From positions 124,001 through 188,000 of the forward strand of contig JALHQW010000005.1 of assembly GCA_022841745.1 (NCBI GenBank): DNA of 64,000 bases, read 5' to 3'. Source of the stretch: Saprospiraceae bacterium (GTDB lineage: Bacteria; Bacteroidota; Bacteroidia; Chitinophagales; Saprospiraceae). The position numbers were made by a program, and so were the translations under genes. Each line of letters opens with the position of its first letter. The first letter of the stretch is position 1. Under the pieces are notes generated by a model. The model ran no database searches, was not told the origin of the DNA, and was given only the letters and a program-made list of their open reading frames with translations. This document shows positions 7,153 through 26,400 of the stretch, piece after piece.

Positions 7153-10100
7153 ATGATCAAGCATTCTTTTACAAGAATCAACACCATTAAGTCCAAAGCC
7201 AAAGCATCTTTCGAAAAAACAAGGATTATTGGCTTACTCTTAATGAGCCTCTTCACTCTTCTGTGCGTGTCAAGCTATTCACAAACCACTATCGGTGGTG
7301 TGAACATGGGTAACTTGACCAATTACCTGTTCTTTTTTGCAGACGGTAGCACCGATGCCAATTGGCAGGGAGCAACCAAGGGCTTTGCTGGGGATGTCGC
7401 AGTTGATGGCCTTCAAGCGAAAGAAAGAACCTCCGGGGGGGTTCCTTTTTCCGGTACCATTTACACCAACGACAACAACTTGAGCGCCTGGGCTTCCATC
7501 GTTGACCAAAACGACCCAGGGCAGGTAAATCCCGCCCAAGCATTTGGTGTCACCAACCAAATCTCCCGGATTTCAAACCTTGAGGCAGATTTGAGTACCG
7601 CTTTTTCTCAAATCAACGCCCGGCCCACATCCGCTGGCTTTTCAAGCGTTTCTTCCACTTCGTTGAATGGGCTGAACAAGCAAAATGGGGTTGCTGAAAC
7701 TTTTGTCATCAACATTACATCTGGCCTTCAGGTATCCAGCAAGATAAATATCACTGGCGATGCTGGCGATGTCTTTATTCTACGCTGGGACTCAGATGGC
7801 AATCCCAACAACGGCTATCAGGGACAGACCAAGTTCCAGAGCGGTGGCGCAGTTGTGCCACTCGGCGGGTTGAAGCCTTCCAATTTTATCAACGTTGCAG
7901 GTGACATCAACAGCAGTGGCGGCGGCTCAGCTCCAGCTGCACCCTACCCGCAAGGGCCTCGCTTCAATAATGGTACTGGCAACCTTGTAACCAACGCCGC
8001 TAATTTTAGCGGTGGTGGCTATTTTACTGGCTATTGGCTCACAACTGGTAACCCTACCAATGGGGAGTCATCGTCCATGAGCAACGGTATTTTCGTGGGC
8101 GGGTGGTACACCACCGCCAAAAAATTCAGCTTGACCTCTGGTACAAGTGGCGTCTATGTTGCACCCAACCTGCCTCCTCCTCCAAACAATAGTTGCCTCG
8201 GCGAAGCAGCTAATTATGTACTACTTGGCTTGCAAGGCGGTAGCGTCTCCATCAATAGCGGCACGAACCTCATTGGCGACATTGGCTATTCGGCTGGTGT
8301 GACGAGTTCAACCAATCAAAAACTGGGTGATGACGGTCAATTTAATGGCACAGTGTACGTACACGGCAGTGTTAACCAGTTCTCCTTCGCCTCCCAGAAC
8401 TTCCTGCCAAGCGGTGGCATCGTTCAGAACAATGCGGCACAAAATACCCGTTTGAACCAGGCGAATGCCAGTGCAGTCTCGGCGTCCGCCAGCTTTGCAG
8501 CATTGCCACCGAACGTGGTTTTCGGCGCATTGAATGACAACGACAGCAAGACAATTAACCGCACCGGCAACGTGACCGTAGTGAGGATTGCATCGCTCAA
8601 CTACAAGGAAGACCAGTTAACGCTGGTTGGACAACCTGGCCAAAATGACGCATTCGTCATCAATGTTCTTGGCAATTTCGAGTTCTCGGGGTCGAAAATA
8701 GTGTTGCAAAATGTCAGCCCGAACATGGTTGTGTTCAATTTCCCAAATGCTTCCACAATTTACCTCAACAAGGCATCCAATATTTTCAACGGCACCATTC
8801 TGGCCCCAACTGGCTCCGTGGAATACCATAATCCAGCAGTTTTCAACGGTGGAATTGTCGCAAAGAATATTACCCTACATTCTGATTTCAACATCACCAA
8901 AAAACCACTGCAAATCCCTTGCACGTCTTGTTTAGACAACGATGCAGACGGCGTTTGCAACGACCAGGACTGCAAGCCGGATAACCCAGCTTTTCCAGCC
9001 GCACCAGGTTCGCCCTGCAACGATGGTAACCCGAACACGGTGAACGATGTAGTACAGTTTGATGGATGTAGTTGTGCAGGTAACACTGTCGTCGATTGTA
9101 CGGTTACAGGTGGAGTTTGCGCTGGATGTGATGCCCTGATGTCGGTTACTTTCCCAACAGGTAATGGTTGTGTAAATGTCACTTCGTGTAAAGCCCTTTC
9201 CAATGTAGTCGTTAGGACACAGAACGGGGCAGAAGTGAAGTTTGACAACCTTTCTGCGTTTTCTCAATCATTTTGCTCACCAGACGGTTCGCCGATTATT
9301 AGGGTCTGGGTTAAGTCAGGATGTTTTGAGAGTGGAGACGGTTCCGGCTATGGCAGAAGGTTTGATAAACCAGCTAGTTGTGTTCCAGTTGTTATTTGTG
9401 ACAATGTAACCCTCGGCGGCACGATTGGCTTCGGTACAGACTGCAGCTCCGCCGTTCAATATTGCCCAGCTAACGGCCCTGCACCCATCATCGGGAACTG
9501 CATTTCACCCACAGGAGGCACTGGTAACCTTGAAATCATTTGGTTGAAAAGTACCTCTTCTTGCACCTTCCCTACCACAACAGCAGCCCAAATCATGGCT
9601 GGCTTAGACCCTCATTGGTCAATAATCCCTGGCGTAACCGGTCTTACGCTTAACCCCGGCAACGTGACCCAGAAGACTTGCTACCTGCGCTGCACCCGCA
9701 GGGCTGGCTGTTCGACTTATATTGAATCAAATATTATCTCTTTGGAATTGGCCCCAAACTGTGGCGGCGGCAATACGCCTGACTGCAACAATATCATCAT
9801 CACCACAGGAATTGGTGTTGTCAACGTCAGCGGAATCGCCGGGTCGCCGGTTACGTCCGTGCAAATCTCCAATGCCAATTTGCAGGAAGTGGTGAACTGC
9901 CTTGGCACTTGTGCCAGCCCAACCGCCTCATTCCCCTTACCTGCCGGCACCTATTTTGTAAAGGTGAAGTACCATAATGCAGCTTACGAGGTGATTTGCG
10001 AGAAAAACCAGACCGTGAACGTAGCGAGCGCATTGGCTGGTAGCCAGGCCGAAGGACTGGATTTCGGTGCAGCCAAAGCTGACGAACTGACTACCCTCTT

Positions 10101-10593
10101 CTGGAACCACAACAATGGCTACTTGGTCGAAAAATACGTCGTGGAACGTTCAACCGATGGCATTGAATTCAGGGACATAAGTGAACAGGTTTCTAAGGGC
10201 GGCCAAAGCAAGGAAGTTTACGAAGACTTTGACCTTGAACCTGCTACTGGTGACAACTTCTATAGGTTAAGGATTGTAAACTCAGACGGCAGTTTCTCTT
10301 ATTCAGCAGTACAAAAAGTCAATTTCTTGGACGTGGTGGATTACACCATTTTCCCAAACCCTGCAAGCAGTTTTGCAAAGCTAAACCTCGAAACGATGGT
10401 GGGCAATAAGGATATCACCATTACCATTTTCAACAACCTCGGGTTACAGGTTAAGCAAATCGAGCTGGACGAAATTTGGAGTAAGCACTATCAAATGGAC
10501 ATCCGGGACCTGCAAGAAGGCCACTACACTGTTTGGTTGAATGTGCCGGGCAAGCGGCCAATCGCCAAAAAGTTGATGGTGGGAAAATTGTAG
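7153..10593 (+). CDS. Mosaic T9SS-sorted surface protein with two choice-of-anchor-A-like domains (paralogue 1)
   Basis: A secreted protein of 1,146 residues. After a signal peptide with a long basic front (ends SSYSQ, about residue 45) come two related domains, about 48-345 and 350-590. Each begins with an NYLFF/NYVLL strand, then GD-V and FSGTIY/FNGTVY, then FVIN segments. The second ends with GTILAPTGSVEY and GGIVAKNI, as in choice-of-anchor A family domains. Next are an Asp-rich, thrombospondin-3-like CNDGNPNTVND module (about 595-650), a Cys-rich module with SVTFPTGNGCVNVTSC, a module with CYLRCTRRAGC, and a short beta-module before ENxTVNV. The T9SS type A sorting domain occupies about 1065-1146 (YTIFPNPA). 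The C-terminal half is shared with the genes at 13532 and 17948. It ends at a clear hairpin. Role: probably adhesin or matrix protein; not demonstrated. Confidence 0.9.
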   Translation: MIKHSFTRINTIKSKAKASFEKTRIIGLLLMSLFTLLCVSSYSQTTIGGVNMGNLTNYLFFFADGSTDANWQGATKGFAGDVAVDGLQAKERTSGGVPFSGTIYTNDNNLSAWASIVDQNDPGQVNPAQAFGVTNQISRISNLEADLSTAFSQINARPTSAGFSSVSSTSLNGLNKQNGVAETFVINITSGLQVSSKINITGDAGDVFILRWDSDGNPNNGYQGQTKFQSGGAVVPLGGLKPSNFINVAGDINSSGGGSAPAAPYPQGPRFNNGTGNLVTNAANFSGGGYFTGYWLTTGNPTNGESSSMSNGIFVGGWYTTAKKFSLTSGTSGVYVAPNLPPPPNNSCLGEAANYVLLGLQGGSVSINSGTNLIGDIGYSAGVTSSTNQKLGDDGQFNGTVYVHGSVNQFSFASQNFLPSGGIVQNNAAQNTRLNQANASAVSASASFAALPPNVVFGALNDNDSKTINRTGNVTVVRIASLNYKEDQLTLVGQPGQNDAFVINVLGNFEFSGSKIVLQNVSPNMVVFNFPNASTIYLNKASNIFNGTILAPTGSVEYHNPAVFNGGIVAKNITLHSDFNITKKPLQIPCTSCLDNDADGVCNDQDCKPDNPAFPAAPGSPCNDGNPNTVNDVVQFDGCSCAGNTVVDCTVTGGVCAGCDALMSVTFPTGNGCVNVTSCKALSNVVVRTQNGAEVKFDNLSAFSQSFCSPDGSPIIRVWVKSGCFESGDGSGYGRRFDKPASCVPVVICDNVTLGGTIGFGTDCSSAVQYCPANGPAPIIGNCISPTGGTGNLEIIWLKSTSSCTFPTTTAAQIMAGLDPHWSIIPGVTGLTLNPGNVTQKTCYLRCTRRAGCSTYIESNIISLELAPNCGGGNTPDCNNIIITTGIGVVNVSGIAGSPVTSVQISNANLQEVVNCLGTCASPTASFPLPAGTYFVKVKYHNAAYEVICEKNQTVNVASALAGSQAEGLDFGAAKADELTTLFWNHNNGYLVEKYVVERSTDGIEFRDISEQVSKGGQSKEVYEDFDLEPATGDNFYRLRIVNSDGSFSYSAVQKVNFLDVVDYTIFPNPASSFAKLNLETMVGNKDITITIFNNLGLQVKQIELDEIWSKHYQMDIRDLQEGHYTVWLNVPGKRPIAKKLMVGKL
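9097..9382 (+). repeat. Near-identical Cys-rich module DNA, copy 1
   Basis: By eye this segment differs from 15059-15344 at only a handful of positions; the first ~155 bp show about seven differences, and there are identical runs of roughly 40 and 60 bp. The rest of the two genes is much more diverged. It encodes the SVTFPTGNGCVNVTSC module. Confidence 0.8.
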
Positions 10594-10673
10594 AATGCCT
10601 TGAGCAAATTCTCTTCGGGGTAATACTATTCCCTATGTGAGCAATTGCATAACAAGGCATAATTCAAATTTTG

Positions 10674-10704
10674 GAAGCCGATACTGTAAAATAGTATCGG
10701 CTTC
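10674..10704 (+). terminator. Terminator hairpin after paralogue 1
   Basis: A perfect 12-bp stem (10674-10685 with 10693-10704) and a 7-nt loop lie 80 bp past the stop codon. The following TTCAATAAAA is only weakly U-rich, so termination may be imperfect. Confidence 0.6.
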
Positions 10705-10729
10705 TTCAATAAAAATGTCTGTTAAATTT

Positions 10730-10757
10730 TTGTTTTTTACCGGAATAATTACCTTTG
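10730..10757 (+). promoter_or_regulatory. Bacteroidota-type promoter for the cotH-like gene
   Basis: TTG (10730-10732), 17 nt, then TACCTTTG (10750-10757). Predicted start near 10764, about 140 nt before the ATG at 10907. It follows directly on the upstream terminator, so it opens a new transcription unit. Confidence 0.6.
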
Positions 10758-10906
10758 TTTAAATTTCATCTCACTTCATCTTTTTTTGAATGCTTGACAG
10801 GCGCATTTAATAAGCATTCCACTAGCTGGTCTTACCATTAAATATTACTGGTCTCATCACGTTGCAGCTACCCCTGCTTACTGTTTAACCAAACTTGCAT
10901 TACGTG

Positions 10907-13360
10907 ATGCACACTGCAAAAACCATTTTTTTGGGTATTTTCTTGACCGTTTCTTGCCGCCTCATCGGCCAGAACGGCACTAGTTTGTTCGACAACTCCG
11001 TCGTGCACGAGCTGCGTTTTTATTTTACGGAAGAAAACTTCTGGGATAGCCTTTCGCACAACTGGGAGGAGTACCATGATGACAGCGGGGTGGACATACC
11101 TTACCTCCATGCTACCTTGCTGCTGGACGGCGTCCAGCTCGACTCAGTGGGCTTCCGGCAAAAAGGATTGTCGTCGCACTGGGCATCCTCAAAGCTCAAA
11201 AAACCGTTCAAAGTGGACCTAAACGAGTTCGTGACTGGTCAAAACTTTGAAGGCATCAAGAAATTCAGCCTCCACAATGGTGCCTGCGACCCAGGCATGA
11301 TGAGGGATTTTGTTGGCTATAACGTCCTGCGCACGGCAGGGGTACGCGCACCAAGGGTCTCTTTTTGTAGGCTCTACCTCAATGACGAATACTGGGGGCT
11401 TTACGGAATCATCGAACAGATTGACAAGACTTTCACTGATGCCAACTTCGACAATGACGGCACTTTAATCAAAAATATTGGGTGGACAGAGCTTGACTGG
11501 GTAGGTGATTCCATTGAAATCTATCAGAAAGATTTTCAGTTGAAAACCAATGAAGATACTTATGATTGGGGCAGTTTTCTCAATTTCATGGACGTGGTCA
11601 ACAACAGTTCTGACGACGAATTCCCGGCTGCCATCCAAAAAGTTTTCGACGTGGATTTGTACCTGCACGTACTTGCTGCTGATATCATGACCAATAATTG
11701 GGACAGCTATATTGACAACGAGCGCAATTTTTACCTCTACGATGAGCCATCCGGCAAGCAGTTCCATTGGATTCCCTGGGATTATAACCTAAGTATGGGC
11801 GGAGATTTCCCGACTGGCGGCAATCCTTTCCCACCCTTCGACAGCAGTTGCTATATTCAGGCTAATTTCTCCCACCTGCAGTTCGATAGTACCTTCATGC
11901 TGACGAACCATACCTTGCCCGCCGCCGATTATGTGGAGTGGGATTTTGGATTTGGGCAGACTTCCAATCTTTTCAATCCAACCGCAACCTTCGAAGCCCA
12001 AGGCGAAAGGACAATCTGTCTCACCGCCTACCGAAACGAAGGCAATCAAGTCTGCCAGAACAGGCGGTGCCAAAAATTCGATTTGTCCTTCAACCCGGGC
12101 CAATGCGAAACCATCCTGAATGGTTCTTGCCCCTACCCTGCTACCGACCCGATTTTCCAGAAAGTGGCCCAACAGGACAGCTATTGTTGCGAGGACGAAT
12201 GGGATGCAGTTTGTGCTTTGCAGTATTACGAAATCCTGCAAAACCCGCCCAATTATGGGAGCATTGGCAGCCCAGGAGTGGAATATGACCTGAACTTCCC
12301 GCTCCTGCTCGACGATACTTCTAAAATCTTGGTTCACAGGCTGTTGCAAGTGTCGGCTTTTCGCAAGCGATACCTTGACATCTGCTGCTTGATGATGGCA
12401 AAGAACTTCAACAAAGACCGGCTTTTCCCTATGATTGATGGCCAGCGGGACTTGATACGGCCGCATATTTATGAAGACCCCAATTATGTGTTTACCAAGG
12501 ATTATTTTGAGTATGACCTTGGGAATGGAACAGGTGGCGGCGGTGGTGCCCAAATACCTTCCCTTAAATGGATACTCGACCAGCGTTTCGACCAGGTGGC
12601 GGAAAACCTCGCAAGCACTGGCCACGACTGCTCCAAAGCATTTTCGCCCATTGGCTGGCAGGGTGTGGTCATCAATGAAATCATGGCCAGCAATAGCGAT
12701 GAAAGCGGAATAGCCGACCCTGATGGGGAATATGACGATTGGATTGAGCTTTTCAACAACACCAATCAGGCTATAGACCTCAAGAATTTTTACCTGACCG
12801 ATACCACAGGATTCCGACTTAAATGGACTTTCCCCTTTGGATCTGTCATTGCACCCAATGGCTACCTTATCGTCTGGGCGGATAAAGACGAGGACCAGCA
12901 GGGCATACATGCCAATTTCAAATTATCGGCTCAAGGCGAAGAACTCATGCTGAGTCATGAGGATGGGACGGTCATAGATGTGGTCAGCTATTTTCAACAG
13001 GAAGAAAACACCTCTTACGCCCGTGTGCCAAATGGCACTGGCAATTTGATCCCTCAATACCCAACATTTAATGGGAACAACAACATAACCGATGTTGCTG
13101 AATTGAACGACAACAAAGGTTCATTCCATGTTTACCCGAACCCAGCTCGTGATTTTATAATTGTTGAGTTATTTAATGAAGCAACTGAACCAGCTACCAT
13201 TACGCTATGCAATTTGCTTGGCGAAGTGATTGAACTCGGAACGAAAATTTCCTCAACTAAGCAGCGATTTTCGACAGCTGGATTAACAAGTGGCGTATAT
13301 TTTATTGAATCAAGGCAGGAGAAATCCATGACCGTAAAACGAGTATTAATTCAGCATTGA
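10907..13360 (+). CDS. Secreted CotH-family kinase with lamin-tail domain and T9SS sorting domain
   Basis: CotH proteins are atypical protein kinases. Here the fold carries a signal peptide (ends RLIGQ) and a T9SS type A sorting domain (about 735-817, FHVYPNPA), so it should act outside the cell. The kinase core spans about 30-300, with VGFRQKGLSS, then NWDSY (D266) and RNFYLY. The metal-binding motif IPWDYN (D292) follows 26 residues after D266, close to the spacing in Bacillus CotH. A PKD-like segment (VEWDFGFG) and a Cys-rich CCEDEWDAVC motif are inserted after D292. Core-like helices then resume (RKRYLDICCLMM). A lamin-tail domain follows at about 583-700 (VVINEIMASN, DDWIELFN). I chose ATG 10907 over an upstream TTG at 10895. 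The next gene starts 171 bp downstream with no terminator between, so they may be co-transcribed. The substrate is unknown. Confidence 0.88.
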   Translation: MHTAKTIFLGIFLTVSCRLIGQNGTSLFDNSVVHELRFYFTEENFWDSLSHNWEEYHDDSGVDIPYLHATLLLDGVQLDSVGFRQKGLSSHWASSKLKKPFKVDLNEFVTGQNFEGIKKFSLHNGACDPGMMRDFVGYNVLRTAGVRAPRVSFCRLYLNDEYWGLYGIIEQIDKTFTDANFDNDGTLIKNIGWTELDWVGDSIEIYQKDFQLKTNEDTYDWGSFLNFMDVVNNSSDDEFPAAIQKVFDVDLYLHVLAADIMTNNWDSYIDNERNFYLYDEPSGKQFHWIPWDYNLSMGGDFPTGGNPFPPFDSSCYIQANFSHLQFDSTFMLTNHTLPAADYVEWDFGFGQTSNLFNPTATFEAQGERTICLTAYRNEGNQVCQNRRCQKFDLSFNPGQCETILNGSCPYPATDPIFQKVAQQDSYCCEDEWDAVCALQYYEILQNPPNYGSIGSPGVEYDLNFPLLLDDTSKILVHRLLQVSAFRKRYLDICCLMMAKNFNKDRLFPMIDGQRDLIRPHIYEDPNYVFTKDYFEYDLGNGTGGGGGAQIPSLKWILDQRFDQVAENLASTGHDCSKAFSPIGWQGVVINEIMASNSDESGIADPDGEYDDWIELFNNTNQAIDLKNFYLTDTTGFRLKWTFPFGSVIAPNGYLIVWADKDEDQQGIHANFKLSAQGEELMLSHEDGTVIDVVSYFQQEENTSYARVPNGTGNLIPQYPTFNGNNNITDVAELNDNKGSFHVYPNPARDFIIVELFNEATEPATITLCNLLGEVIELGTKISSTKQRFSTAGLTSGVYFIESRQEKSMTVKRVLIQH

Positions 13361-13531
13361 GTATAAAGAAGTATTATAAAACATCAATTTCTTTTAAAGG
13401 TCTCACTTAAAAAAACATTAAGTATTTAGATTTTAACTGGTCTCCAACATAAGGAATCATTGAACTTTCAAAGGCAAGGTGCAACACCTTCCAATGGGGG
13501 ACTTATTTTTATTAACCAAATTCTTATTGAC

Positions 13532-16500
13532 ATGAATTGCAATTTTAAACCTACCATTCGGGGATTGATAGTCCTCGTACTTGCCCTTGGTATGGGATTT
13601 CCATTATCGGCACTAAATGTATGGCCGGATGGGAATAACCAAGAGGCGGGATGCCTTTACGAGTTATCGAAAATCACTCGAAATGCAGCCGATTTGGACT
13701 TGAACATCGAGCTTATGATGACCGAGGATTGTTGTGAAGACAGCAAGCCAGTGAAATCCACTTTTAAGTACACTGGCCAAGGATGCAGTGCTTCCAACAA
13801 CAACCAGGGTAGCGATAAGTGGTATTGTCAAAGTTCTGGCGGAGGCCTTAACGGGAACGCTACTGTTTACATTAAAGCAGGCGAAGAGGAGAATGGTTCA
13901 GGCGATGCCTTCTTTGCAGGTACTGTCGCATTGAATGGAACATTCACCATTGATGCAGGAACCGCAGGTGAGGATAAACTCCCTTCCAACACCTATTTCA
14001 ACATTTACGCAAGCCAAGGAGGTGCCCTACTTCAGCGGTTAAAAATCCATACCTCCTGTTCTACTCCAATCGTTATGGGCGACCAATTTGGTAGCTTGAT
14101 TTGGGAGGCTATCGAATTTGAAGATGGTTCTACCTGTGCACCTCCAGTGCCAGACGAAGTTTGCCCTACACCCATCATCAATGTACCAGGTGGCCAGAAA
14201 TGTGCTGGTGCGCCATTGGTGTTCTCGGCCCCTGATTTGGGCTATCCTTGCTTGACCTATGTATGGGATTTCGGCCCAACTGCCAACCCACCCGTTGCTG
14301 TCGGCTTAGGCCCACACACGGTCGTGTTTAGCACAACAGGTGCTAAGACCGTCAAATTGAGCATTGACAACGGCTGTACCAACGATAACGGCTCTGGCTC
14401 CGGTAGCTCTGGCTCTGGTTCCAACGGCTCCGGCTCTGGCGGAACTGGCACTAATGGATCTGGCTCTGGTGGCTCTGGCTCCAATGGGTCAGGTTCTGGT
14501 AGCTCTGGTTCGGGTTCAGGCTCTAACTCCGGCGGTCAGGGTGTTATTTGCTCTGGCAACAATGGTAGCAGCGGCTCTGGTAGTTCTGGTTCTGGCTCAG
14601 GCGGTTCAGGTGGCTCTGGCTCCACTGGTTCAGGCGGCTCTACTGGTTCAGGCGGCTCTGGTTCAGGCGGCTCTGGTTCAGGTAGCTCTGGCAGCACTGG
14701 TTCAAGCAACGACAGCCCATGCGGTGGCGTGAATGGTAGTGGTTCCACTGGTTCAGGCGGCTCAGGTTCCACTGGTTCAGGCGGCTCAGGTTCCACTGGT
14801 TCAGGCGGCTCAGGCTCCACTGGTTCTGGTGGTTCTGGTTCAGGTTCCACAGGCTCCGGCTCAGGTAGCTCTGGCACTGGTGACTGCTTCTGCATCGAGT
14901 GCCGTGAAACCACAACCGTGACAATTACAGTTGAAAATTGCAGCCCATGCGCCAACCCTGTTGCGCCAGGTACGGCATGCAACGACGGCAACCCGAACAC
15001 GGTGAACGATGTAATACAGGCTGATGGCTGCAATTGTGCAGGTAACACTCCCGTCGTTTGTACGGTTACTGGTGGAGTTTGCGATGGATGTGACGCCTTG
15101 ATGTCGGTTACTTTCCCAACAGGTAATGGTTGTGTAAATGTTACTTCCTGTAAAGCCCTTTCCAATGTAGTCGTTAGGACACAGAACGGGGCAGAAGTGA
15201 AGTTTGATAACCTTTCAGCCAATTCTCAATCATTTTGCTCGCCTGACGGTTCGCCGATTATTAGGGTCTGGGTCAAGTCAGGATGTTTTCAGAGTGGAGA
15301 CGGCCCTGGCTATGGCAGAAGATTTGATAAACCAGCTACTTGTGGCCCAGTTGACCCCTGCGCCAACCAAGGCGGTGACACTGATGGCGATGGCGTATGC
15401 AACAACCAGGACTGCCAACCCAACAACCCGGCGTTCCCGGCAACACCAGGCTCACCTTGCAACGACGGCAACCCGAACACCACCAATGATGTGGTTACGG
15501 CCAATGGATGTGGATGCGTAGGCACGCCTCCGAACCCATGCGCCAACCAAGGCGGCGATACTGATGGAGATGGCGTTTGCAACAACCAGGATTGCCAACC
15601 CAACAACCCGGCGTTCCCGGCCACGCCTGGCACACCTTGCAACGATGGCAATCCGAATACCCAAAACGATGTGGTAACCGCCAATGGCTGCGGTTGTGCC
15701 GGCACACCTGTGTCCACCTGTAACGTGACCGTAAATGGTTGCGTGATTAAAATCACTGGCCTTAACGCCTCCAGCAGTGCCAAGATCTTCAACAGCAACT
15801 GGCAAATCATCTTTGACTGCAATCCTTGGACTGGCAATGCATGCGGAAGTAATATAAGCTTTACTGTTCCAGCCAATGGTACTTACTGGGTACAGGCCTG
15901 CGGCAGCACTACTGCTTACACCGTTTCTGGCTGCACGCCTAACCCTTGCGCCAACCAAGGCGGTGACTCCGACGGCGACGGCGTTTGCAACAACCAAGAT
16001 TGCCAGCCCAACAACCCGGCGTTCCCGGCCACACCTGGCACTCCTTGCAACGACGGCAACCCGAACACCATCAACGATGTGGTTACAGCCAATGGATGCG
16101 GTTGTGCAGGTACGCCACCGAACCCCTGCGCCAACCAAGGCGGTGACTCAGATGGCGACGGCGTCTGCAACAACCAGGACTGCCAGCCAAACAACCCGGC
16201 TTTCCCGGCGACACCTGGCACTTCCTGCAACGACGGCAACCCGAACACCATCAACGATGTAGTGCAGCCGGGTGGTTGTAGCTGCGCTGGAACACCCGTT
16301 TCGGCTTGCGACAATATCACCAATGGTGGCACTATCGGTTTTGGGGCTAACTGTGCTAACGCTTTTCAACATTGCCCGACTAATGGCCCGGCACCTGCTA
16401 TCAGCAACTGCACTTCCCCATCGGGTGGTTCTGGCATGATGGAGACGGTTTGGCTCAAGAGCACAACGTCTTGCAATTATCCTACGACAAACATCACCCA

Positions 16501-17506
16501 GATTACAGCTGGACTGGACCCACATTGGGTGATCATCCCAGGTGCGACCGGCCTGACCTACAACCCAGGCAACGTGACGCAGAACACCTGCTACCTGCGC
16601 TGCACACGCCGGGCTGGATGCCCAGTGTACATTGAGTCCAATATCATTTCACTGACCATCGCACCAAACTGCGGCGGCAACAGCGGAACGCCCAACTGTG
16701 CGAATATTGGCATAGCTACCCAACCGGGCAAAATTGTGGTCTCTGGCCTTGGTGGCGTCCCCGTCACTTCTATCCAGGTGTTCAATTCAGCTTGGCAGAC
16801 CTTGGTCAACTGCTTTGGCAACTGTCCTTCCCCTACTGCCACTTATAATGTTCCTGCGGGCACTTATTACGTGAAAGTGAAGTTCTACACTGCCAACTAC
16901 CAGTTCGTATGCGAGGTGAACCAAACTGTCAGTGTAGCCAATGCGCTCATTGGGGACTTGAACGAGCAGTTCGACTTCATGGCCAAAAAGCAGGAATCGT
17001 TCACCAACCTGGTATGGATGCACAATGGTGGCTACCATGTGGAGCGGTACATCTTGGAGCGTTCGGCCAACGGTGTTGACTTTGAGGTCATTGGAGGCTC
17101 AGATTCGAAGGGTAGCGACGTGAAAGAGCTTTACGAGGACTTTGACCTTGAGCCCCTCACCGGCGACAATTACTACCGGGTGAAGCTGTTGGACATCAAT
17201 GGCATCACTTATTACTCGGATGTACAAAAAGTCCATTTTGCGGAGGTGATTGACTTCACCATCTTCCCGAACCCAGCGAGTGATTTTGCGAAACTCAATT
17301 TGGAGAAGTTGATTGGGCAAGAAAATGCAAGTATCACCATCTTCAACAACTTGGGCCTTCAGGTCAAGCGCATCGAGCTGGACGAAGTCTGGAGCAAATA
17401 CTACCAAGTGGACATCCGTGACATGCACGAAGGCCACTACACTGTTTGGTTGAATGTGCCGGGCAAGCGGCCTATCGCCAAGAAAATGGTAGTCGGCAAG
17501 ATTTAA
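13532..17506 (+). CDS. Mosaic T9SS-sorted surface protein with long Ser/Gly tract (paralogue 2)
   Basis: A secreted protein of 1,324 residues. The start at 13532 puts the signal peptide (MNCNFKPTIRGLIVLVLALG) at the N-terminus; an in-frame ATG 24 codons upstream would hide it. Order: a Cys-containing module beginning KPVKSTFKYTGQGC (about 67-202); a PKD-like domain (about 211-283, YVWDFG); a Ser/Gly-rich tract (about 285-450); a short CFCIEC segment. Then come the Cys-rich module also found in paralogue 1 and four D-x-DGDGVCNNQDC / CNDGNPNT repeats, interrupted by a CNVTVNGCVI module. Next are the CYLRCTRRAGC module, a short beta-module and a T9SS type A sorting domain (about 1241-1324). No promoter or terminator is visible in the 171 bp before it, so it probably shares a transcript with the CotH-like kinase. 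The Ser/Gly tract is a plausible kinase target (inference). Confidence 0.88.
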   Translation: MNCNFKPTIRGLIVLVLALGMGFPLSALNVWPDGNNQEAGCLYELSKITRNAADLDLNIELMMTEDCCEDSKPVKSTFKYTGQGCSASNNNQGSDKWYCQSSGGGLNGNATVYIKAGEEENGSGDAFFAGTVALNGTFTIDAGTAGEDKLPSNTYFNIYASQGGALLQRLKIHTSCSTPIVMGDQFGSLIWEAIEFEDGSTCAPPVPDEVCPTPIINVPGGQKCAGAPLVFSAPDLGYPCLTYVWDFGPTANPPVAVGLGPHTVVFSTTGAKTVKLSIDNGCTNDNGSGSGSSGSGSNGSGSGGTGTNGSGSGGSGSNGSGSGSSGSGSGSNSGGQGVICSGNNGSSGSGSSGSGSGGSGGSGSTGSGGSTGSGGSGSGGSGSGSSGSTGSSNDSPCGGVNGSGSTGSGGSGSTGSGGSGSTGSGGSGSTGSGGSGSGSTGSGSGSSGTGDCFCIECRETTTVTITVENCSPCANPVAPGTACNDGNPNTVNDVIQADGCNCAGNTPVVCTVTGGVCDGCDALMSVTFPTGNGCVNVTSCKALSNVVVRTQNGAEVKFDNLSANSQSFCSPDGSPIIRVWVKSGCFQSGDGPGYGRRFDKPATCGPVDPCANQGGDTDGDGVCNNQDCQPNNPAFPATPGSPCNDGNPNTTNDVVTANGCGCVGTPPNPCANQGGDTDGDGVCNNQDCQPNNPAFPATPGTPCNDGNPNTQNDVVTANGCGCAGTPVSTCNVTVNGCVIKITGLNASSSAKIFNSNWQIIFDCNPWTGNACGSNISFTVPANGTYWVQACGSTTAYTVSGCTPNPCANQGGDSDGDGVCNNQDCQPNNPAFPATPGTPCNDGNPNTINDVVTANGCGCAGTPPNPCANQGGDSDGDGVCNNQDCQPNNPAFPATPGTSCNDGNPNTINDVVQPGGCSCAGTPVSACDNITNGGTIGFGANCANAFQHCPTNGPAPAISNCTSPSGGSGMMETVWLKSTTSCNYPTTNITQITAGLDPHWVIIPGATGLTYNPGNVTQNTCYLRCTRRAGCPVYIESNIISLTIAPNCGGNSGTPNCANIGIATQPGKIVVSGLGGVPVTSIQVFNSAWQTLVNCFGNCPSPTATYNVPAGTYYVKVKFYTANYQFVCEVNQTVSVANALIGDLNEQFDFMAKKQESFTNLVWMHNGGYHVERYILERSANGVDFEVIGGSDSKGSDVKELYEDFDLEPLTGDNYYRVKLLDINGITYYSDVQKVHFAEVIDFTIFPNPASDFAKLNLEKLIGQENASITIFNNLGLQVKRIELDEVWSKYYQVDIRDMHEGHYTVWLNVPGKRPIAKKMVVGKI
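14386..14880 (+). repeat. Ser/Gly-coding low-complexity tract
   Basis: About 165 codons made almost entirely of Ser and Gly with occasional Thr and Asn, interrupted by two short Cys-containing islands (VICSGNN and SPCGGVN). Within it 14741-14836 is a 24-bp tandem repeat of about four units (GGTTCCACTGGTTCAGGCGG plus CTCA), encoding GSTGSGGS. The tract is prone to length change and assembly collapse. Confidence 0.9.
15059..15344 (+). repeat. Near-identical Cys-rich module DNA, copy 2
   Basis: Partner of 9097-9382. High nucleotide identity, including at third codon positions, suggests recent duplication or gene conversion rather than only protein-level conservation. Confidence 0.8.
15358..16300 (+). 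repeat. Four ~180-bp Asp-rich repeats in paralogue 2
   Basis: Two tandem pairs (about 15358-15718 and 15947-16300) encode CANQGGDxDGDGVCNNQDC followed by PGTPCNDGNPNT and NGCGCAG. The DxDGDG loop resembles thrombospondin-3/EF-hand-like calcium-binding loops, and six cysteines per unit suggest a disulfide-locked small fold. The same unit occurs six times in the gene at 17948. Confidence 0.85.
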
Positions 17507-17947: not shown

Positions 17948-20900
17948 ATGAACAACTCACTTGTTACATTTAACAGAATCCTATTAAGTCAGATTGGGAT
18001 ACCAAAAGGTATTTTCCGTGCGGCTTTAGTAGGTTTATTTGCGCTTTTTTATGCGAATGCAGAGGTCAGCGCCCAGTGCCAGACCTGTTGTAACGGCAGC
18101 AAACCAAAATCATTGGTTTTGCTCTACAACGGCAAATCTTGCGCAGAATCAGTCACCTGCCAAGCGGCAGATAAATGGTCTTGCTCAGGTTCCGGCCCTG
18201 GCAATGCTGCCACCGTTTACATCACCGCCAGCAAGAATGATGATGGTACTGGCGGCACTTATTTCGCTGGCACCGTCAACCTGAACGCTGAATTTACTGC
18301 AATTGCAGCATCAGGAGGAAGTACAACCTTCCCATCCAACACCTATTTCAGGGTTTTAAGCAGCCAGGGTGGCACCTTGCTACAGACTGTCAAAATCCAC
18401 ACCTCCTGTTCAACCCCGCTCGTGGCGGGCGACCAGTTAGGTAGCTTCAAGCTCAATAAAATCACGCTTGAGGACAATACGGTGTGCAATGCACCAGCAC
18501 CGCCACCGCCACCGCCGACCTGCCCTACACCGGTCTTTACCATCAACAACAATTCCAGCACCAATGCTGGGCCGGTTTGCAAAAACACCCAGATTATTTA
18601 CAAAGCGACGGACCTTGGATTCCCCTGCTTCGTTTATAGCTGGAACTTTGGCGCCAATGCCACCCCTTCCACGGCTACAGGCATCGGGCCTCACACGGTG
18701 ACCTATTCTTCGACGGGAACTGCTACCGTTACCCTGAGCACCACCAACAACTGTGCAGGTGGCGTCGGCTCGACCCTCTGCCCTCCCCCGCCGCCCCCAC
18801 CAGTTGGCTCGGACTGTTGCGACAGCAACAGCGGCAAGCCCAAGACCCTGGCAATCAGGTACACAGGCCAGAGTTGCTCTACGACGAACACCACACAGGG
18901 CACAGACAAATACTCTTGTGCTGACGTTGGCAGCGGGCCAAACGGTGCTTCGTCCGTTTATATCATCGCCAACGAAAAGGCCGATGGTTCTGGCATCACT
19001 TATTTTGCTGGCACCGTCAATTTGAACAGCACCTTCAATGCCACATCGCCCAGCAGCACGTTGCCAACCAATACCTTCTTCATCGTAAAGGCAAGCCAAA
19101 GCGGCGCTGTATTGCAAAACATCAAAATCCATACTTCCTGCTCTGCGCCAATCGTGCCGGGCGAAAGCTTTGGTGCCCTCCTGCTTGAAAGCGCCACTTG
19201 GTCAACAGGTGTCACCTGCGACGTGAACAGCGGAAGTGGAGGCGGAAGTGGGAGCGGCGGCCCGGATTGCTGCGACAGCAACAGTGGCAAGCCAAAGTCC
19301 CTTACCATACAGTACAACGGCGAAAGCTGTTCAGAAACCAGCACTTCGCAAGGGCCAGACAAATATTCCTGCGCCAATGTTGGCAATGGGCCAAACGGTG
19401 CTACTTCCGTCTATATCCTTGCCAATGAGAAGGCAGATGGCACAGGCATTTCCTATTTTGCAGGCACCGTCAGCTTGGGCAGCAGCTTTACTGCCACCTC
19501 CCCAAGCAGTTCCCTGCCTACCAACACTTATTTTATTGTCAAGGCCAGCCAAAGTGGCGCTGTCCTGCAAAATGTGAAAATCCACACATCCTGCTCGGCG
19601 CCCATCGTATCAGGCGACCAGTTCGGAAGCCTTGTTTTGCAAGCTGCTACTTGGGCTTCAGGTGTCACTTGCGGTCAAGTAACGCCTCCTGGACCTGATT
19701 GCATTGATTGCCAGAAAACGACGACGGTTACCATTACTGTACAGGACTGCACCTGTATCAACCAAGGTGGCGACTCGGACGGTGATGGTGTTTGCAACAA
19801 CCAAGATTGCGCACCTTTCGACCCGAATTTTCCCAAGCCTGCTGGCACAACTTGCAACGACAACAATCCGAACACCACCAACGATGTGATACAATCCGAT
19901 GGTTGCTCGTGCGCAGGAACACCTGCTTGTAACCTTTCGGCTACGTTCACTGTACCAAACGGCTGTTTGACAAACACTTTCTTCCTTTTTGCGGATGCGA
20001 ACGACCCCTACTCCCCACCCAATAATCCAAACTACACCTATTCTTACGTCATACAACCTGCCAATACGGTTGCCTCTGCGTTTACGATTGACCCACGGTC
20101 GTTGTCTGTTACATTCAATGCAACGGGCCTTAAAACCGTGACTGCTACTATTACAAATCCGGCAATTCCTAACTGTCAAATCGTGAAAACGGCCACCTTC
20201 ACGGTTTCGGACTGTAGCCCTTGCGTGAACCAAGGTGGCGACTCAGACGGCGACGGCGTTTGCAACAACGTGGACTGCCAGCCCAACAACCCGGCTTTCC
20301 CGGCTACGCCTGGCACACCTTGCAACGACGGCAACCCGAACACCAACAACGATGTGGTAACCGCCAATGGCTGTGGCTGCGCTGGTACACCCACATCCAC
20401 CTGCAACGTGACCGTCAATGGGTGTGTGATTACTATCACTGGCTTGAATGCTACCAGCAGTGCCAAGATTTTTAACAGCACTTGGAATATCCTCTTCGAC
20501 TGCAATCCTTGGGGCGGCACCCCTTGTGGTAGCAACATCACCTACACCGTTCCTTCTAATGGCACTTACTGGGTGCAGGCCTGTGGTAGCACCACTTCCT
20601 ACACCGTGTCCAACTGTACCACCAACCCATGCGCCAACCTAGGTGGCGACTCCGACGGGGATGGCGTCTGCAACAACAACGACTGCCAGCCCAACAACCC
20701 GGCGTTCCCTGCAACACCTGGCTCGCCCTGCAACGACGGCAACCCGAACACCACCAACGACGTGGTGACGGCCAACGGCTGTGGATGCGCCGGAACGCCA
20801 GTTTCGGTTTGCGACAACATCACCAATGGTGGCACCATCGGTTTTGGCAATAGCTGTGCTTCCACTGCTTCCATAGCTTGCAACACGGCGGCGCCGAACA

Positions 20901-23221
20901 TCATCAATTGCCTCAGTCCGTCCGGAGGCAGCGGAACTATTGATATTATTTGGTTGAAGAGCACGACGAGCTGCTCACCACCCACCACCACAGCCGCACA
21001 GGTTATCGCTGGTCTGGACCCTCATTGGGTACTCATCCCTGGCCAAACAGGCCTGACCCTCAATCCTGGAGTCGTATCTGCCAACACCTGTTACCTGCGT
21101 TGTACCCGTCGGGTAGGTTGTGCCAACTACATTGAGTCCAATATTATCAGCCTCACTACTGATTGCAACACTGGCACACCAAATTGCGCCAACATCACAA
21201 TTTCTGCTGGAAATGGTACCATTACAGTAGGGAACCTTGGAGCAGCACCATTCGCTTCAGTGAAGATTTTCAATACCAGCTGGGGCACGGTATTTAGTTG
21301 CTTCGCTAATTGCAATGGCTCCACTGTGACCGTAAACGTTGGGGCTGGCACTTACTATGTCTATGCTGGCTATGTTGCAAGCAACTACAGCCTCATCTGC
21401 GAGCGGAACCAGACGGTAACGGTGACCACCACCACCAACCCCTGCGCCACCCAGGGTGGGGACACCGATGGCGACGGCGTTTGCAACAACCAGGACTGCG
21501 CTCCGTCTGACCCTGCTTTCCCGAAACCTGCCGGGACACCCTGCAACGACGGCAACCCGAACACGACAAACGACGTGATTCAGGCCAATGGCTGCACCTG
21601 TGCAGGAACCACTGTCAGCCCATGTTCTACCCAAGGTGGGGACAGCGACGGCGATGGCGTTTGCAACAACCAAGACTGCGCTCCTTTTGATGCGAACTTC
21701 CCGAAACCGGCAGGCACTGCATGCAACGACGGAAACCCGAACACGACAAACGACGTGATCCAGGCCAATGGCTGCACCTGTGCAGGAACCACTGTCAGCC
21801 CATGTTCTACCCAGGGCGGCGACAGCGATGGCGACGGCGTTTGCAACAACCAGGACTGCGCTCCTTTTGATGCGAACTTCCCGAAACCGGCAGGCACTAC
21901 CTGCAACGACGGCAACGCCAATACCGTCTCGGATGTAATCCAAGCTGATGGATGCACCTGTGCCGGCACCGTTCTGCCTCCAGCAAACTGCAATGTTCAA
22001 ACGAATGGATGCGTTACCGTGGTTTTGAAAGGCATCACCACGAATGCCAATGGCAGCAAAACTTATGAGTTCAAAATAACTCACAACTGTAGTCATGCCC
22101 TTTCCTACGCAGCCTTCCAATTGCCCAGTGGTTACACCGCAACGGATCGTCAAAATGGTGGCACTTATAATGGATGGTCAGTGAATTATTTGGTTGAAAA
22201 CCCAACCAATAATCCATTTTACTCCATTAAGTTTGAAACCATTGGCCAAGGCATCAGCAACGGTCAAATGGAGACGTTCACCTATACCCTTCCTGCTGGG
22301 GCACCCGTGCTAAACCCCCTGAAGGTACAGGTAAAAGCATCCACGACCACCTATCTGGTAAGCATGAACACGACAAACTGCAGTAGCGGCGGAGGCGGCG
22401 GCACACCCAACTGTGCCAACATCAACATATCAACCAGCCCGGGCAAAATAAATGTAACAGGCCTGGACGGTGCTCCTATCAGCTCACTGCAAGTATTCAA
22501 CTCAAGCTGGACGACCACGATTTTCTCTTGCTTCAACAATTGCGGTGCTTCGCAACAAATAACTGTTCCGGCGGGCAGTTACCAGGTACTGGCCAAGTAT
22601 TACAATTCAAGCTGGACCCCAGTTTGCGAGAAATCACAATCGGTTAACGTCAGCAGTGCCTTGCAGGGCGACCAACAGGAAAACCTGCACTTCGTTGCGA
22701 ACAAGCACGAGGAGCACACTACCCTTTTCTGGTTGCACAATAGGGGCAATATTGTTGCTGACTACAACCTTGAGCGTTCTTCGGATGGCGTTCAGTTTGA
22801 GCGGATTGCCAACTTGGTATCTCTTGGCGGAGAACGCAGCGAATACTACGAAACTTACGATTTCGAACCATTAAGTGGGGACAATTATTACCGCCTGCAA
22901 TTGGTGAATATTGATGGTAGCATTACTTACTCCGACATCCAGAAAGTCAATTTCCCCGACCTCGTGGATTTTGTCCTGTTCCCGAACCCAGCCAATGGGT
23001 TTGTAAAAGCCAACCTTGAAACGGTGATTGGTGCTGAGGGAGTGAGCATCACCATCTTCAACAACCTCGGATTGCAGGTCAAGCACATCGAGCTGGACGA
23101 AGTCTGGAGCAAATACTATCAGATGGACATCCGTGACATGCACGAAGGCCACTATACTGTTTGGTTGAATGTGCCGAGCAAGCGGCCAATCGCCAAGAAG
23201 CTGGTTGTTGGTAAACTGTAG
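17948..23221 (+). CDS. Mosaic T9SS-sorted surface protein with three KPK-type and six Asp-rich modules (paralogue 3)
   Basis: A secreted protein of 1,757 residues; the signal peptide ends SAQ at about residue 42. Three copies of a ~135-residue module with KPKxLxxxYxGxSC and VKIHTSCS lie at about 46-180, 289-424 and 440-575. The first is followed by a PKD-like domain and a proline run. Six D-x-DGDGVCNN / CNDGNPNT repeats follow, the last three in direct tandem. Mixed among them are a CNVTVNGCVI module, a CYLRCTRRVGC module, and a ~120-residue segment (NCNVQTNGCVTVVLKG) not seen in the paralogues. The T9SS type A sorting domain is at about 1675-1757, with almost the same sequence as in the other two paralogues (IFNNLGLQVK, HYTVWLNVP). 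Its own promoter precedes it and a strong hairpin follows. Probable adhesin or matrix component, possibly calcium-stabilised (inference). Confidence 0.9.
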   Translation: MNNSLVTFNRILLSQIGIPKGIFRAALVGLFALFYANAEVSAQCQTCCNGSKPKSLVLLYNGKSCAESVTCQAADKWSCSGSGPGNAATVYITASKNDDGTGGTYFAGTVNLNAEFTAIAASGGSTTFPSNTYFRVLSSQGGTLLQTVKIHTSCSTPLVAGDQLGSFKLNKITLEDNTVCNAPAPPPPPPTCPTPVFTINNNSSTNAGPVCKNTQIIYKATDLGFPCFVYSWNFGANATPSTATGIGPHTVTYSSTGTATVTLSTTNNCAGGVGSTLCPPPPPPPVGSDCCDSNSGKPKTLAIRYTGQSCSTTNTTQGTDKYSCADVGSGPNGASSVYIIANEKADGSGITYFAGTVNLNSTFNATSPSSTLPTNTFFIVKASQSGAVLQNIKIHTSCSAPIVPGESFGALLLESATWSTGVTCDVNSGSGGGSGSGGPDCCDSNSGKPKSLTIQYNGESCSETSTSQGPDKYSCANVGNGPNGATSVYILANEKADGTGISYFAGTVSLGSSFTATSPSSSLPTNTYFIVKASQSGAVLQNVKIHTSCSAPIVSGDQFGSLVLQAATWASGVTCGQVTPPGPDCIDCQKTTTVTITVQDCTCINQGGDSDGDGVCNNQDCAPFDPNFPKPAGTTCNDNNPNTTNDVIQSDGCSCAGTPACNLSATFTVPNGCLTNTFFLFADANDPYSPPNNPNYTYSYVIQPANTVASAFTIDPRSLSVTFNATGLKTVTATITNPAIPNCQIVKTATFTVSDCSPCVNQGGDSDGDGVCNNVDCQPNNPAFPATPGTPCNDGNPNTNNDVVTANGCGCAGTPTSTCNVTVNGCVITITGLNATSSAKIFNSTWNILFDCNPWGGTPCGSNITYTVPSNGTYWVQACGSTTSYTVSNCTTNPCANLGGDSDGDGVCNNNDCQPNNPAFPATPGSPCNDGNPNTTNDVVTANGCGCAGTPVSVCDNITNGGTIGFGNSCASTASIACNTAAPNIINCLSPSGGSGTIDIIWLKSTTSCSPPTTTAAQVIAGLDPHWVLIPGQTGLTLNPGVVSANTCYLRCTRRVGCANYIESNIISLTTDCNTGTPNCANITISAGNGTITVGNLGAAPFASVKIFNTSWGTVFSCFANCNGSTVTVNVGAGTYYVYAGYVASNYSLICERNQTVTVTTTTNPCATQGGDTDGDGVCNNQDCAPSDPAFPKPAGTPCNDGNPNTTNDVIQANGCTCAGTTVSPCSTQGGDSDGDGVCNNQDCAPFDANFPKPAGTACNDGNPNTTNDVIQANGCTCAGTTVSPCSTQGGDSDGDGVCNNQDCAPFDANFPKPAGTTCNDGNANTVSDVIQADGCTCAGTVLPPANCNVQTNGCVTVVLKGITTNANGSKTYEFKITHNCSHALSYAAFQLPSGYTATDRQNGGTYNGWSVNYLVENPTNNPFYSIKFETIGQGISNGQMETFTYTLPAGAPVLNPLKVQVKASTTTYLVSMNTTNCSSGGGGGTPNCANINISTSPGKINVTGLDGAPISSLQVFNSSWTTTIFSCFNNCGASQQITVPAGSYQVLAKYYNSSWTPVCEKSQSVNVSSALQGDQQENLHFVANKHEEHTTLFWLHNRGNIVADYNLERSSDGVQFERIANLVSLGGERSEYYETYDFEPLSGDNYYRLQLVNIDGSITYSDIQKVNFPDLVDFVLFPNPANGFVKANLETVIGAEGVSITIFNNLGLQVKHIELDEVWSKYYQMDIRDMHEGHYTVWLNVPSKRPIAKKLVVGKL
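21436..21985 (+). repeat. Three tandem 183-bp Asp-rich repeat units
   Basis: Units begin near 21436, 21619 and 21802; the second and third are nearly identical over most of their length. They are in frame (61 codons) and encode GGDSDGDGVCNNQDC, CNDGNPNT and GCTCAGT segments. Confidence 0.9.
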
Positions 23222-23404: not shown

Positions 23405-26400
23405 CTACGGTATCAATGAATAAGCAATATAATTGCTCAATTTCAGTGTATTGGTAGGAATGGCCAAAATAGTATGTTGCAATAACATGGCCCTATCGTT
23501 TGTAGGCCCTTGGTAAATGGCATTGCCGTCAAGGTTGAGATCTGATTCCTCGTACCCACTCCTGATGAAATTGGAAAGGTTGGAGTAGTTGTCGGGGTGT
23601 GTCATAATATCGAAGAACAACTTGAAAGCATCGTTGTTCGGGCCTTGGTAAATGACCTTGCCATCACCGTTCAGGTCGCCAGGCCACAGCCTTCTGGTCC
23701 CTTCGACTAACCTTTGGGCATGTTCGCTTTCGTATAGCGGCTCGTTAGGTGAAGTAAAATCCACTAATGGGGGGTTCAGAATGTCCAATAACTTGGGGTT
23801 TGCCGTCATAATCCCAAGGTGGTTTCTATGCTTCAACGAAACATAGTAATCTCCCGCCTCGGTAGTATCAAACATTAGAATATCAGACCCATTGGTGCCG
23901 ATTACAGTGCCATTTCTTAACAGCAAAGCTGATTTGGTACCCAATACAATCGTTGGTTCAACTGGGTCTCTCAATTCAACGAGCACCCAGTCCACCATGG
24001 CAGTTGGACCGGTTATATCAAAGTAGGAAGCAGGTATTGTTTCCAAATTGGCACCACCTGGGTTATTATCAGGATCCGGCTGCCAGTAAGGGCTAGCGGA
24101 AGGCAAATACTGCTTCTCACGTAGCTTGTCCCGCATCAGCGTACTATTTGCGACACTAACAAGACCACCACCAAGCAGGACATTCACTCTAACTGCTGCC
24201 ATATTGCAGGTATCGGTCCTGATAAGGGTATAGGCATTGCCGCAGTCATCCGCTGCTACCCAATTATTCGTGCGGACCGTGCCAGCGGGTGTTAGTGTCG
24301 AGGACTCAGTAAAATTAACAGTTACCTGGTTATCGCAATCGTCCACAGCAAATAGATTAATGCCGGGCAAAAAACTGGTTTCCACCTGCGTACAAGGGTT
24401 GTCAATTTCAGCAGGCAAGCTACCTTCCACAACCATGTAGGAAATTGGCCTTGCCGTGAACAAATTGTTCAAGTATGGCCACTCCTCAATCCTGACTTCG
24501 AAACTATTGGCGGTCACATTTCGCACCCGAATGGAAGCAGGGTCGTTCCCAATGGGCTGCCCACCAAATAGTACAACAGGTTTTGAGAACCTTTTCGGCA
24601 ATGGAACAGTCGTCCATGTATTTCCAATAGTTACGCTTCCTGCATGGCCGATGAAATCCCCTTCGATGTCGTTCAGGCTGCCTGCGTTCAATGCCAACCA
24701 AGCCACACTCTCTGCACCATGGTTCTTCTCTGCGTCCAGTGATTGCTCCTCGTCCAAAAACAGCCTGAAATTGTTGATTGTCTGAGTCTGGAACCGGATG
24801 GTGAACGGGTCGGCCTCGTTATGGGTAGTGGCAAATGCCAGCAAAACGGGGGCAGCAGTATATGGGTTTGTATAATTGATAGTGGTTGGGGCACTGGATA
24901 TACCCGTAGCCAAACCAGACTGCAACTTAGCAGCATCTGAAGTTTTACCAACCTCCATTGCCATCCAGGCAATTTGCTCAATGACGTGAATCCCGTCTGC
25001 CTGTTCCTGTTCTTGTACCTTGGCAAAGAATCCTTCCTCGTCCACGTCTTTCACACGGATGGTGATTGGCTCTGAACCATTGGCTGTTATAACTTGGGCA
25101 AACACCAATGGTGGAGCATCAAACGCAATTGGGAATTTCACCCTTGTCCAGGTAGTCCTTACTTTCTCCGCAATGCCCGCCAATAGTTTTTTCCCATTGC
25201 TCAATGTATAAACCCGGAATAGCTCTGGCTCTACCTCATCTGCAACAGTAATGGTCTGGGTGCCAACAGTCGAGTTGCCACATAAGTCATAAGCTGTCCA
25301 GGTTCGTATGACGTGATAATTCTGGCAAGCAGCGGGAGAACCTTGGTTATTGTTTTCGTCAAAACTCATGTAAATGCCAGGACAAACATCCAAACCTATT
25401 ACGGTCGGGGCAACGGGAATAGGGTCACCGCAACCGATGGTCACATCGGCTGGTAGATTCATGAGCGTGGGCGGCAGATTGTCCCCAGCTTGAAGCAGGA
25501 CCGTTGCTTGGTCACAACAGCCTGTTACCGCATTGCATACCTGGTACCTGAAGCTGTCCACCCCACATGCCGAATTATAAGGCGAGTAAGTGAACACGCC
25601 CATCGAATTGATAGTGACAGACCCTTTTGTTGCCGGTGTGGTTATACTGTAAACCGGGTATTGAATATTGACGTCGTTGTAAATGGGTTGCTCTACAAAC
25701 ACCTCTCCGGGGCAGGTTTCGAAGACATCGTTGGCAAGTTGAGGTGCGCCTACAAATAGACACTCTGGATCAGCACAATCTACAAGGCCATCGCCATCAT
25801 TGTCAATGCCGTCCGTGCAATTTTCCGGGCAGTTGACGACAGTTATCGTCACTGAATTTGTGGCAATACACCCTGTGGCAGAAGTTACGGTAACCTGATA
25901 GGTTGTTGTGACCAAAGGGTACACGGTATGGGTTTGGCCGGCGCCAAGCCCATTGTCCCAATTGAAAGTATAAGGAGCAGTGCCTCCGGTTGCTGTTGCG
26001 TTAAGCACATAGCTGCTCCCAATACAAATATTGACATTTGTGCCTACGTCTATCGTAGGCACGCAGTCATTGTCGAGGCAATCAATAAGGCCGTCAGTAT
26101 CGTCGTCGAGGCCGTTGTCGCAGATTTCTTGACAAACAGTAACAGTGACCACCACCTCGTCAGTGCTATTACAGCCACTTGCATCGGTGACTGTTACGGT
26201 GTAGGCCGTCGTGGTAAGAGGGGTTACCGTTTTTGATGCCCCAGTACCAAGTCCGTTGTTCCATACGTAACTTGAACCGCCCGAAGCTGTCAAGGTTGTA
26301 GTATGACCCGTACAAATGCTCACGTCTGGTCCAGCGTTGGCGCCAGTAAAAGCTGTTACGGTTACGGTTGCACTGGCAGAGGTTGTGCTCCCACAGCCAT

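Follow-up and report, generated by a model that had tools for sequence, protein, structure and literature searches.

In a 64,000-nucleotide stretch of a Saprospiraceae genome (the window), a gene for a secreted CotH-family enzyme is followed on the same strand by one that encodes a surface protein bearing a long Ser-Gly tract, and the two very probably form a functional unit. The unit is recognised by its domains, by the catalytic residues and predicted fold of the enzyme, and by the recurrence of the pair in other genomes. The best reading, by analogy, is that of an enzyme genetically linked to its substrate, an arrangement of the cotB-cotG-cotH type transferred to the outer surface, with phosphorylation as the presumed reaction. 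The features of the first gene are as follows.

10907-13360, + strand: CotH-family kinase, T9SS cargo, 817 aa (profile match, structure alignment, predicted model)
11156..11806, + strand: first part of the CotH kinase domain, aa 84-300 (profile match and alignment)
11702-11704, + strand: codon of kinase D266 (alignment)
11780-11782, + strand: codon of kinase D292 (alignment)
11804..12328, + strand: insert, aa 300-474, PKD-like domain plus Cys-rich helical module (5jd9 alignment, model)
12326..12487, + strand: second part of the CotH domain, aa 474-527 (second stretch aligned to 5jd9)
12662..12991, + strand: Lamin Tail Domain (LTD profile, 4.7e-19)
13130..13351, + strand: T9SS type A sorting domain (Por_Secre_tail, 1.6e-12)

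An earlier note had proposed here a CotH-family kinase with both Asp residues in place and a T9SS sorting domain. The coordinates of both genes proved correct on recomputation, and the identification of the kinase held. PF08757 matches its product at 7.6e-55 (187.1 bits against a curated Pfam cut-off of 23.8), and alignment with 5jd9 places D266 and D292 on the Asp residues of 'NFD' and 'PWD'. The spacing of this catalytic pair in 5jd9 is 23 residues (counted by eye), the same as for D228 and D251 of Bacillus subtilis CotH; a change of either of the latter is described as inactivating (PMC7821199). All 27 aligned CotH sequences, the window's included, carry K86, E170, D266, N274 and D292. An AlphaFold2 model (27 sequences, mean pLDDT 82, pTM 0.69) has as its best PDB match the Mg/AMP-bound CotH of B. 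cereus, 5jda (Foldseek E 1e-18, TM 0.87 by target length). By profile, fold and catalytic residues, the product is thus assigned to the CotH family, with a predicted kinase activity. Its sorting domain scores above both the Pfam (PF18962) and the NCBIfam (TIGR04183) cut-offs, and the N-termini of both gene products are hydrophobic, as judged by eye only.

The insert did not figure in the earlier note. About 175 residues long, it splits the kinase domain in two and starts just after D292, the metal-binding Asp; at this position about 16 residues separate the two aligned stretches of 5jd9. Its PKD_4 match is below the Pfam cut-off in the window (19.5 versus 27 bits) and above it in loci L116 and L117. 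The region just after the metal-binding Asp is the activation-segment region of kinase-like folds, hence our guess that the insert docks the substrate. It is also found in CotH proteins of related genomes that have no tract partner (22 of the 28 insert-bearing ORFs).

The second gene and its paralog comprise the following features.

13532-17506, + strand: Ser-Gly-tract surface protein, 1324 aa (ORF and Pfam)
13745..14098, + strand: DUF7467 domain (profile match, 4.1e-32)
14381..14878, + strand: Ser-Gly tract, aa 284-449, 166 aa, mixed synonymous codons (composition count)
15354..16300, + strand: Cys/Asp-rich repeats, DxDGDGxC... (180-bp array at 15354-15687, further copies by eye)
17261..17494, + strand: T9SS sorting domain (Pfam, 2e-8)
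17948..23221, + strand: tract-free paralog with 3 DUF7467 domains, an internal control (Pfam and alignment)

The figure of ~165 Ser/Gly residues given earlier was wrong: the 166-residue tract holds 136 (63 Ser and 73 Gly). Only 3 residues in 171 are acidic, and Lys and Arg are absent from all eight Ser-Gly tracts found in this study. The best 60-residue segment of the protein reaches 85% Ser/Gly, a share that never exceeded 53% when its sequence was shuffled 1000 times. Each tract uses a mixture of codons, with 7 to 17 distinct GS hexamers; it is therefore the protein sequence that is conserved, rather than a DNA microsatellite. The T9SS domain claimed for this protein is upheld by Pfam (PF18962, 34.8 bits versus a cut-off of 27) and falls below the NCBIfam cut-off (TIGR04183, 19.5 versus 23). 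Among the partner proteins, the DUF7467 head and the tract are constant and the C-terminal part is variable. SdrD_B repeats are present in three of the five relatives' partners scanned (G007, G126 and G372); Pfam finds none in the window's own, which has instead the Cys/Asp repeats, without a Pfam match and similar, by eye, to thrombospondin type-3 calcium repeats, as well as a region resembling the PKD domains of its relatives. For the DUF7467 fold, the PDB gave no match at E <= 0.001.

Two further genes of the window deserve mention. An Ice-binding-like adhesin (pAdhesive_15) with a T9SS domain, at 7153-10593, has a stretch of about 400-570 residues in common with the G009 and G001 tract proteins, which points to module shuffling within the cluster. 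On the minus strand, 23405-40663 is a 5752-residue ORF with 267-bp tandem repeats at 35909-36661.

The paralog, which the earlier note did not mention, lacks a long tract: at the point where the tract would start it has a Pro-rich linker, followed at some distance by a short Ser-Gly linker. The tract could be a flexible spacer, and CotH an anchored binding partner whose catalysis is not used on it. This purely structural cooperation would fit the position of the paralog's Pro-rich linker and the existence, at L150 (6881-9718), of a reprolysin-like T9SS metalloprotease that carries a Ser/Thr-Gly tract without a CotH in view. Ser-Gly tracts can indeed be plain linkers, since they occur in that protease and in the paralog, and since short runs are common. 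The invariance of the catalytic residues (27/27) argues against it, as does a linker composition that tracks CotH adjacency (6/8 versus 0/40, see below), and we regard it as quite unlikely.

Two features concern transcription.

10730..10757, + strand: promoter-like site of the Bacteroidota type (TTG ... TACCTTTG), upstream of the kinase gene (consensus match, not proof)
13361..13531, + strand: intergenic gap, 171 bp, without TAnnTTTG box (motif and hairpin scan)

The 171-bp spacing given in the earlier note was exact; its 'no terminator or promoter' was close to correct. Scanned with the Bacteroidota promoter consensus, the gap contains no TAnnTTTG, but it does contain a looser promoter-like box, TATTTTTA, and one weak terminator-like stem at 13487-13500 (2 such stems in 10560-13600 versus 3.5 expected by chance). 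Among five paired loci, TAnnTTTG lies upstream of CotH in three (only the window's site matches -33/-7 in full) and in none of the gaps; the looser TAnnTTTA is found in two of the five gaps. Co-transcription of the two genes is plausible. An attenuator hairpin preceding the second gene was considered and rejected: of five regions folded, only that of G007 stands out (z -2.65; window -0.82).

The window's genome (8.43 Mb) carries 16 CotH genes (17 rows, one gene being split in two), only one of which has a tract neighbour; another (G000:C57:10780-11709) has one in-frame TAG and is possibly a pseudogene or an assembly error. At least one CotH gene is present in each of the 14 genomes of the genus. 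An insert-split kinase match together with a match to the window's CotH at E <= 1e-180 was found in four of them only (G000, which is the window's, G001, G007 and G009), and in each of these the gene that follows on the same strand encodes a DUF7467 protein with a Ser-Gly tract. The other ten, four of which are under 90% complete, lack both this CotH and the tract gene; CotH fragments at contig ends in the genus (e.g. G013:C428, G006:C124) can be judged only partly, and that of G013 has a different N-terminal layout. Family searches added G126 and G372, which represent two further genera and show the same gene order and orientation, so that the pair is known from six genomes in three genera, the paired CotH being 48-58% identical. 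Among 398 family genomes, a full-length CotH match (E <= 1e-180) was obtained in 13 and a DUF7467 gene with tract in six, all within those 13.

A scan for the Ser-Gly codon pattern gave, in the genus, mixed-codon clusters at the four paired loci only. In the family the pattern occurs in at least 107 of 150 genomes, short Ser-Gly codon runs being common; seven of eight clusters examined contained no Ser-Gly ORF as judged by a simple longest-ORF caller, which supplied the gene calls in all scripted counts. The pattern missed G126, where the tract mixes TCN and AGY codons.

A tree of 27 CotH rows united the five pairs then identified in a single clade (99/97). After the addition of G372, the six paired CotH share a clade of eight members (100/99) with the second G372 copy and G299, whose CotH lies inside the paired clade and is not accompanied by a DUF7467 protein; on this tree the pairing label needs two changes. 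It could be argued that descent alone keeps the genes adjacent, after a single event that joined two unrelated T9SS genes. In favour of such a history, T9SS surface genes are abundant here, CotH genes number 16 in the window's genome, and all paired CotH belong to one clade. Against it, the pair was kept over CotH distances exceeding 1 change per site, and CotH and the tract gene are jointly missing from 10 of the 14 genus genomes. The pair also persists in G001, G009 and G126 (three of the four relatives compared), while no other gene in view there matches the window flanks at E 1e-10, the view being under 14 kb each for G009 and G126. Mere descent is, we think, improbable.

The association was quantified on 48 DUF7467 genes recognised by our own profile in 35 genomes, 45 of the genes being in the family; G272 and four of the six out-of-family places, being the weakest matches, fell short of that profile and were left out. 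Genes with a tract directly follow CotH on the same strand in six of eight cases and genes without one in none of 40 (Fisher 2.3e-6; 7.3e-6 when only the 40 genes whose upstream neighbour is in view are counted), p-values that are inflated by the shared descent of the genomes. Eight of the 48 genes lack an upstream neighbour in view and several are truncated at contig ends, where tracts could be missed. The two classes are well separated, with Ser/Gly scores of 0.72-1.00 for tract genes and at most 0.47 for the others. Both tract genes located away from CotH are in G372, which has, besides its adjacent pair, a second CotH located where a contig ends. DUF7467 is seldom found outside the family (in 6 of 395 class genomes), and neither of the two out-of-family places that passed our profile has a tract or an adjoining CotH. 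The pairing put forward earlier gains comparative support from the DUF7467 contrast, for one CotH clade of one family and not Bacteroidota-wide.

Seen from the CotH side, and with duplicate loci removed, 6 of 28 insert-bearing ORFs (kinase match spanning over 380 residues) have a tract neighbour, against none of 49 insert-free ones. Because the other 22 insert-bearing loci have none, the enzyme family does not need such a neighbour; together with the 1/16 of the window's own genome, these counts rule out the tract partner as a general trait of all CotH. A tract was found in 6 of 121 genes beside CotH versus 5 of 1015 other genes of the stretches analysed, a comparison biased by the choice of some stretches for CotH, DUF7467 or tract patterns. 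A p-value of 1e-12 obtained for a CotH clade of seven genomes was discarded, as the clade had been drawn after the pairs were seen.

How the pair might work, i.e. which substrate, which group, where, and with what role for the insert, we infer as follows. Both products would be exported via Sec and T9SS to the cell surface, where the CotH product would act as a catalytically competent protein-kinase-like enzyme, its PKD/Cys insert probably docking or positioning the substrate. The tract encoded by the next gene would be the cognate substrate and receive many phosphates, so that a neutral linker would become a strongly acidic, cation-binding stalk joining the DUF7467 head to the C-terminal repeats. 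The proposition that the enzyme phosphorylates this tract has, by analogy, an even chance of being right. Weighing against it are the dependence on ATP outside the cell, tracts free of Lys and Arg (unlike CotB and CotG), the 22 insert-bearing CotH loci with no tract neighbour, the Ser-Gly tracts and runs elsewhere that can be plain linkers, the two G372 tract genes apart from CotH, the G299 CotH with no DUF7467 and a spacing between CotH and tract gene that is long for an operon (171-334 bp in five loci, measured in relatives up to the first ORF start). The full picture, in which a T9SS-delivered CotH polyphosphorylates a Ser-Gly stalk at the cell surface, with the PKD/Cys module in the activation-segment position as docking site, and thereby provides bacteria with an extracellular equivalent of secreted mineral-binding phosphoproteins, is offered tentatively, as less likely than not.

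The genes could also be linked with the enzyme acting elsewhere, on a glycan carried by the tract serines, on another region of the partner or on a third surface molecule, the tract perhaps being glycosylated like Ser-Asp repeats or the Ser-Gly cores of proteoglycans. Ser-Gly dipeptides serve as glycosaminoglycan attachment sites in animals, and SdrD_B repeats, present in three of five relatives' partners, are named after a Ser-Asp-repeat adhesin. No glycosyltransferase, adjacent as in the Sdg systems discussed below, was detected in a Pfam scan of 15 of the window's 20 called proteins, and the window's own partner is without SdrD_B match. Such an alternative target seems to us unlikely. A genetically linked candidate substrate reduces the question of secreted CotH targets to one assay. 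Our literature searches returned few papers on CotH as a secreted kinase, cellulosome and fungal ones among them (by title), none on CotH in Saprospiraceae, on CotH and type IX secretion in Bacteroidetes or on DUF7467, and no title, among the matches listed, on a CotH substrate in this bacterial group.

Three known systems can be compared with the pair. Like the window's enzyme, the secretory-pathway kinase Fam20C is secreted and has a kinase-like fold; it is eukaryotic and recognises S-x-E sites, whereas the window's tract has few acidic residues. Fam20C is said to be distantly related to CotH (PMC7821199). In staphylococci, sdgA and sdgB adjoin the genes of SDR adhesins, and their products glycosylate the Ser-Asp tracts of these adhesins (PMC3794999). 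There too the gene of a modifying enzyme neighbours that of a surface protein bearing a Ser dipeptide tract, and SdrD_B repeats link the two systems through the relatives' partners, though not the window's; the differences are a kinase fold instead of a glycosyltransferase, Ser-Gly instead of Ser-Asp, and T9SS instead of sortase. The closest parallel is with Bacillus, where cotH clusters with cotB and cotG, and CotH phosphorylates the Ser-rich repeats of both CotB and CotG (PMC7821199). Unlike that CotH, the window's kinase is a T9SS cargo with a PKD/Cys insert, an LTD and a sorting domain, and its candidate substrate is a neutral Ser-Gly tract, not Ser/Lys/Arg repeats. What both share is the kinase fold with its catalytic Asp pair (PF08757; 5jd9/5jda) and a kinase gene that adjoins the gene for an outer-layer protein with Ser-rich repeats, as is the case here for six of the eight tract genes.
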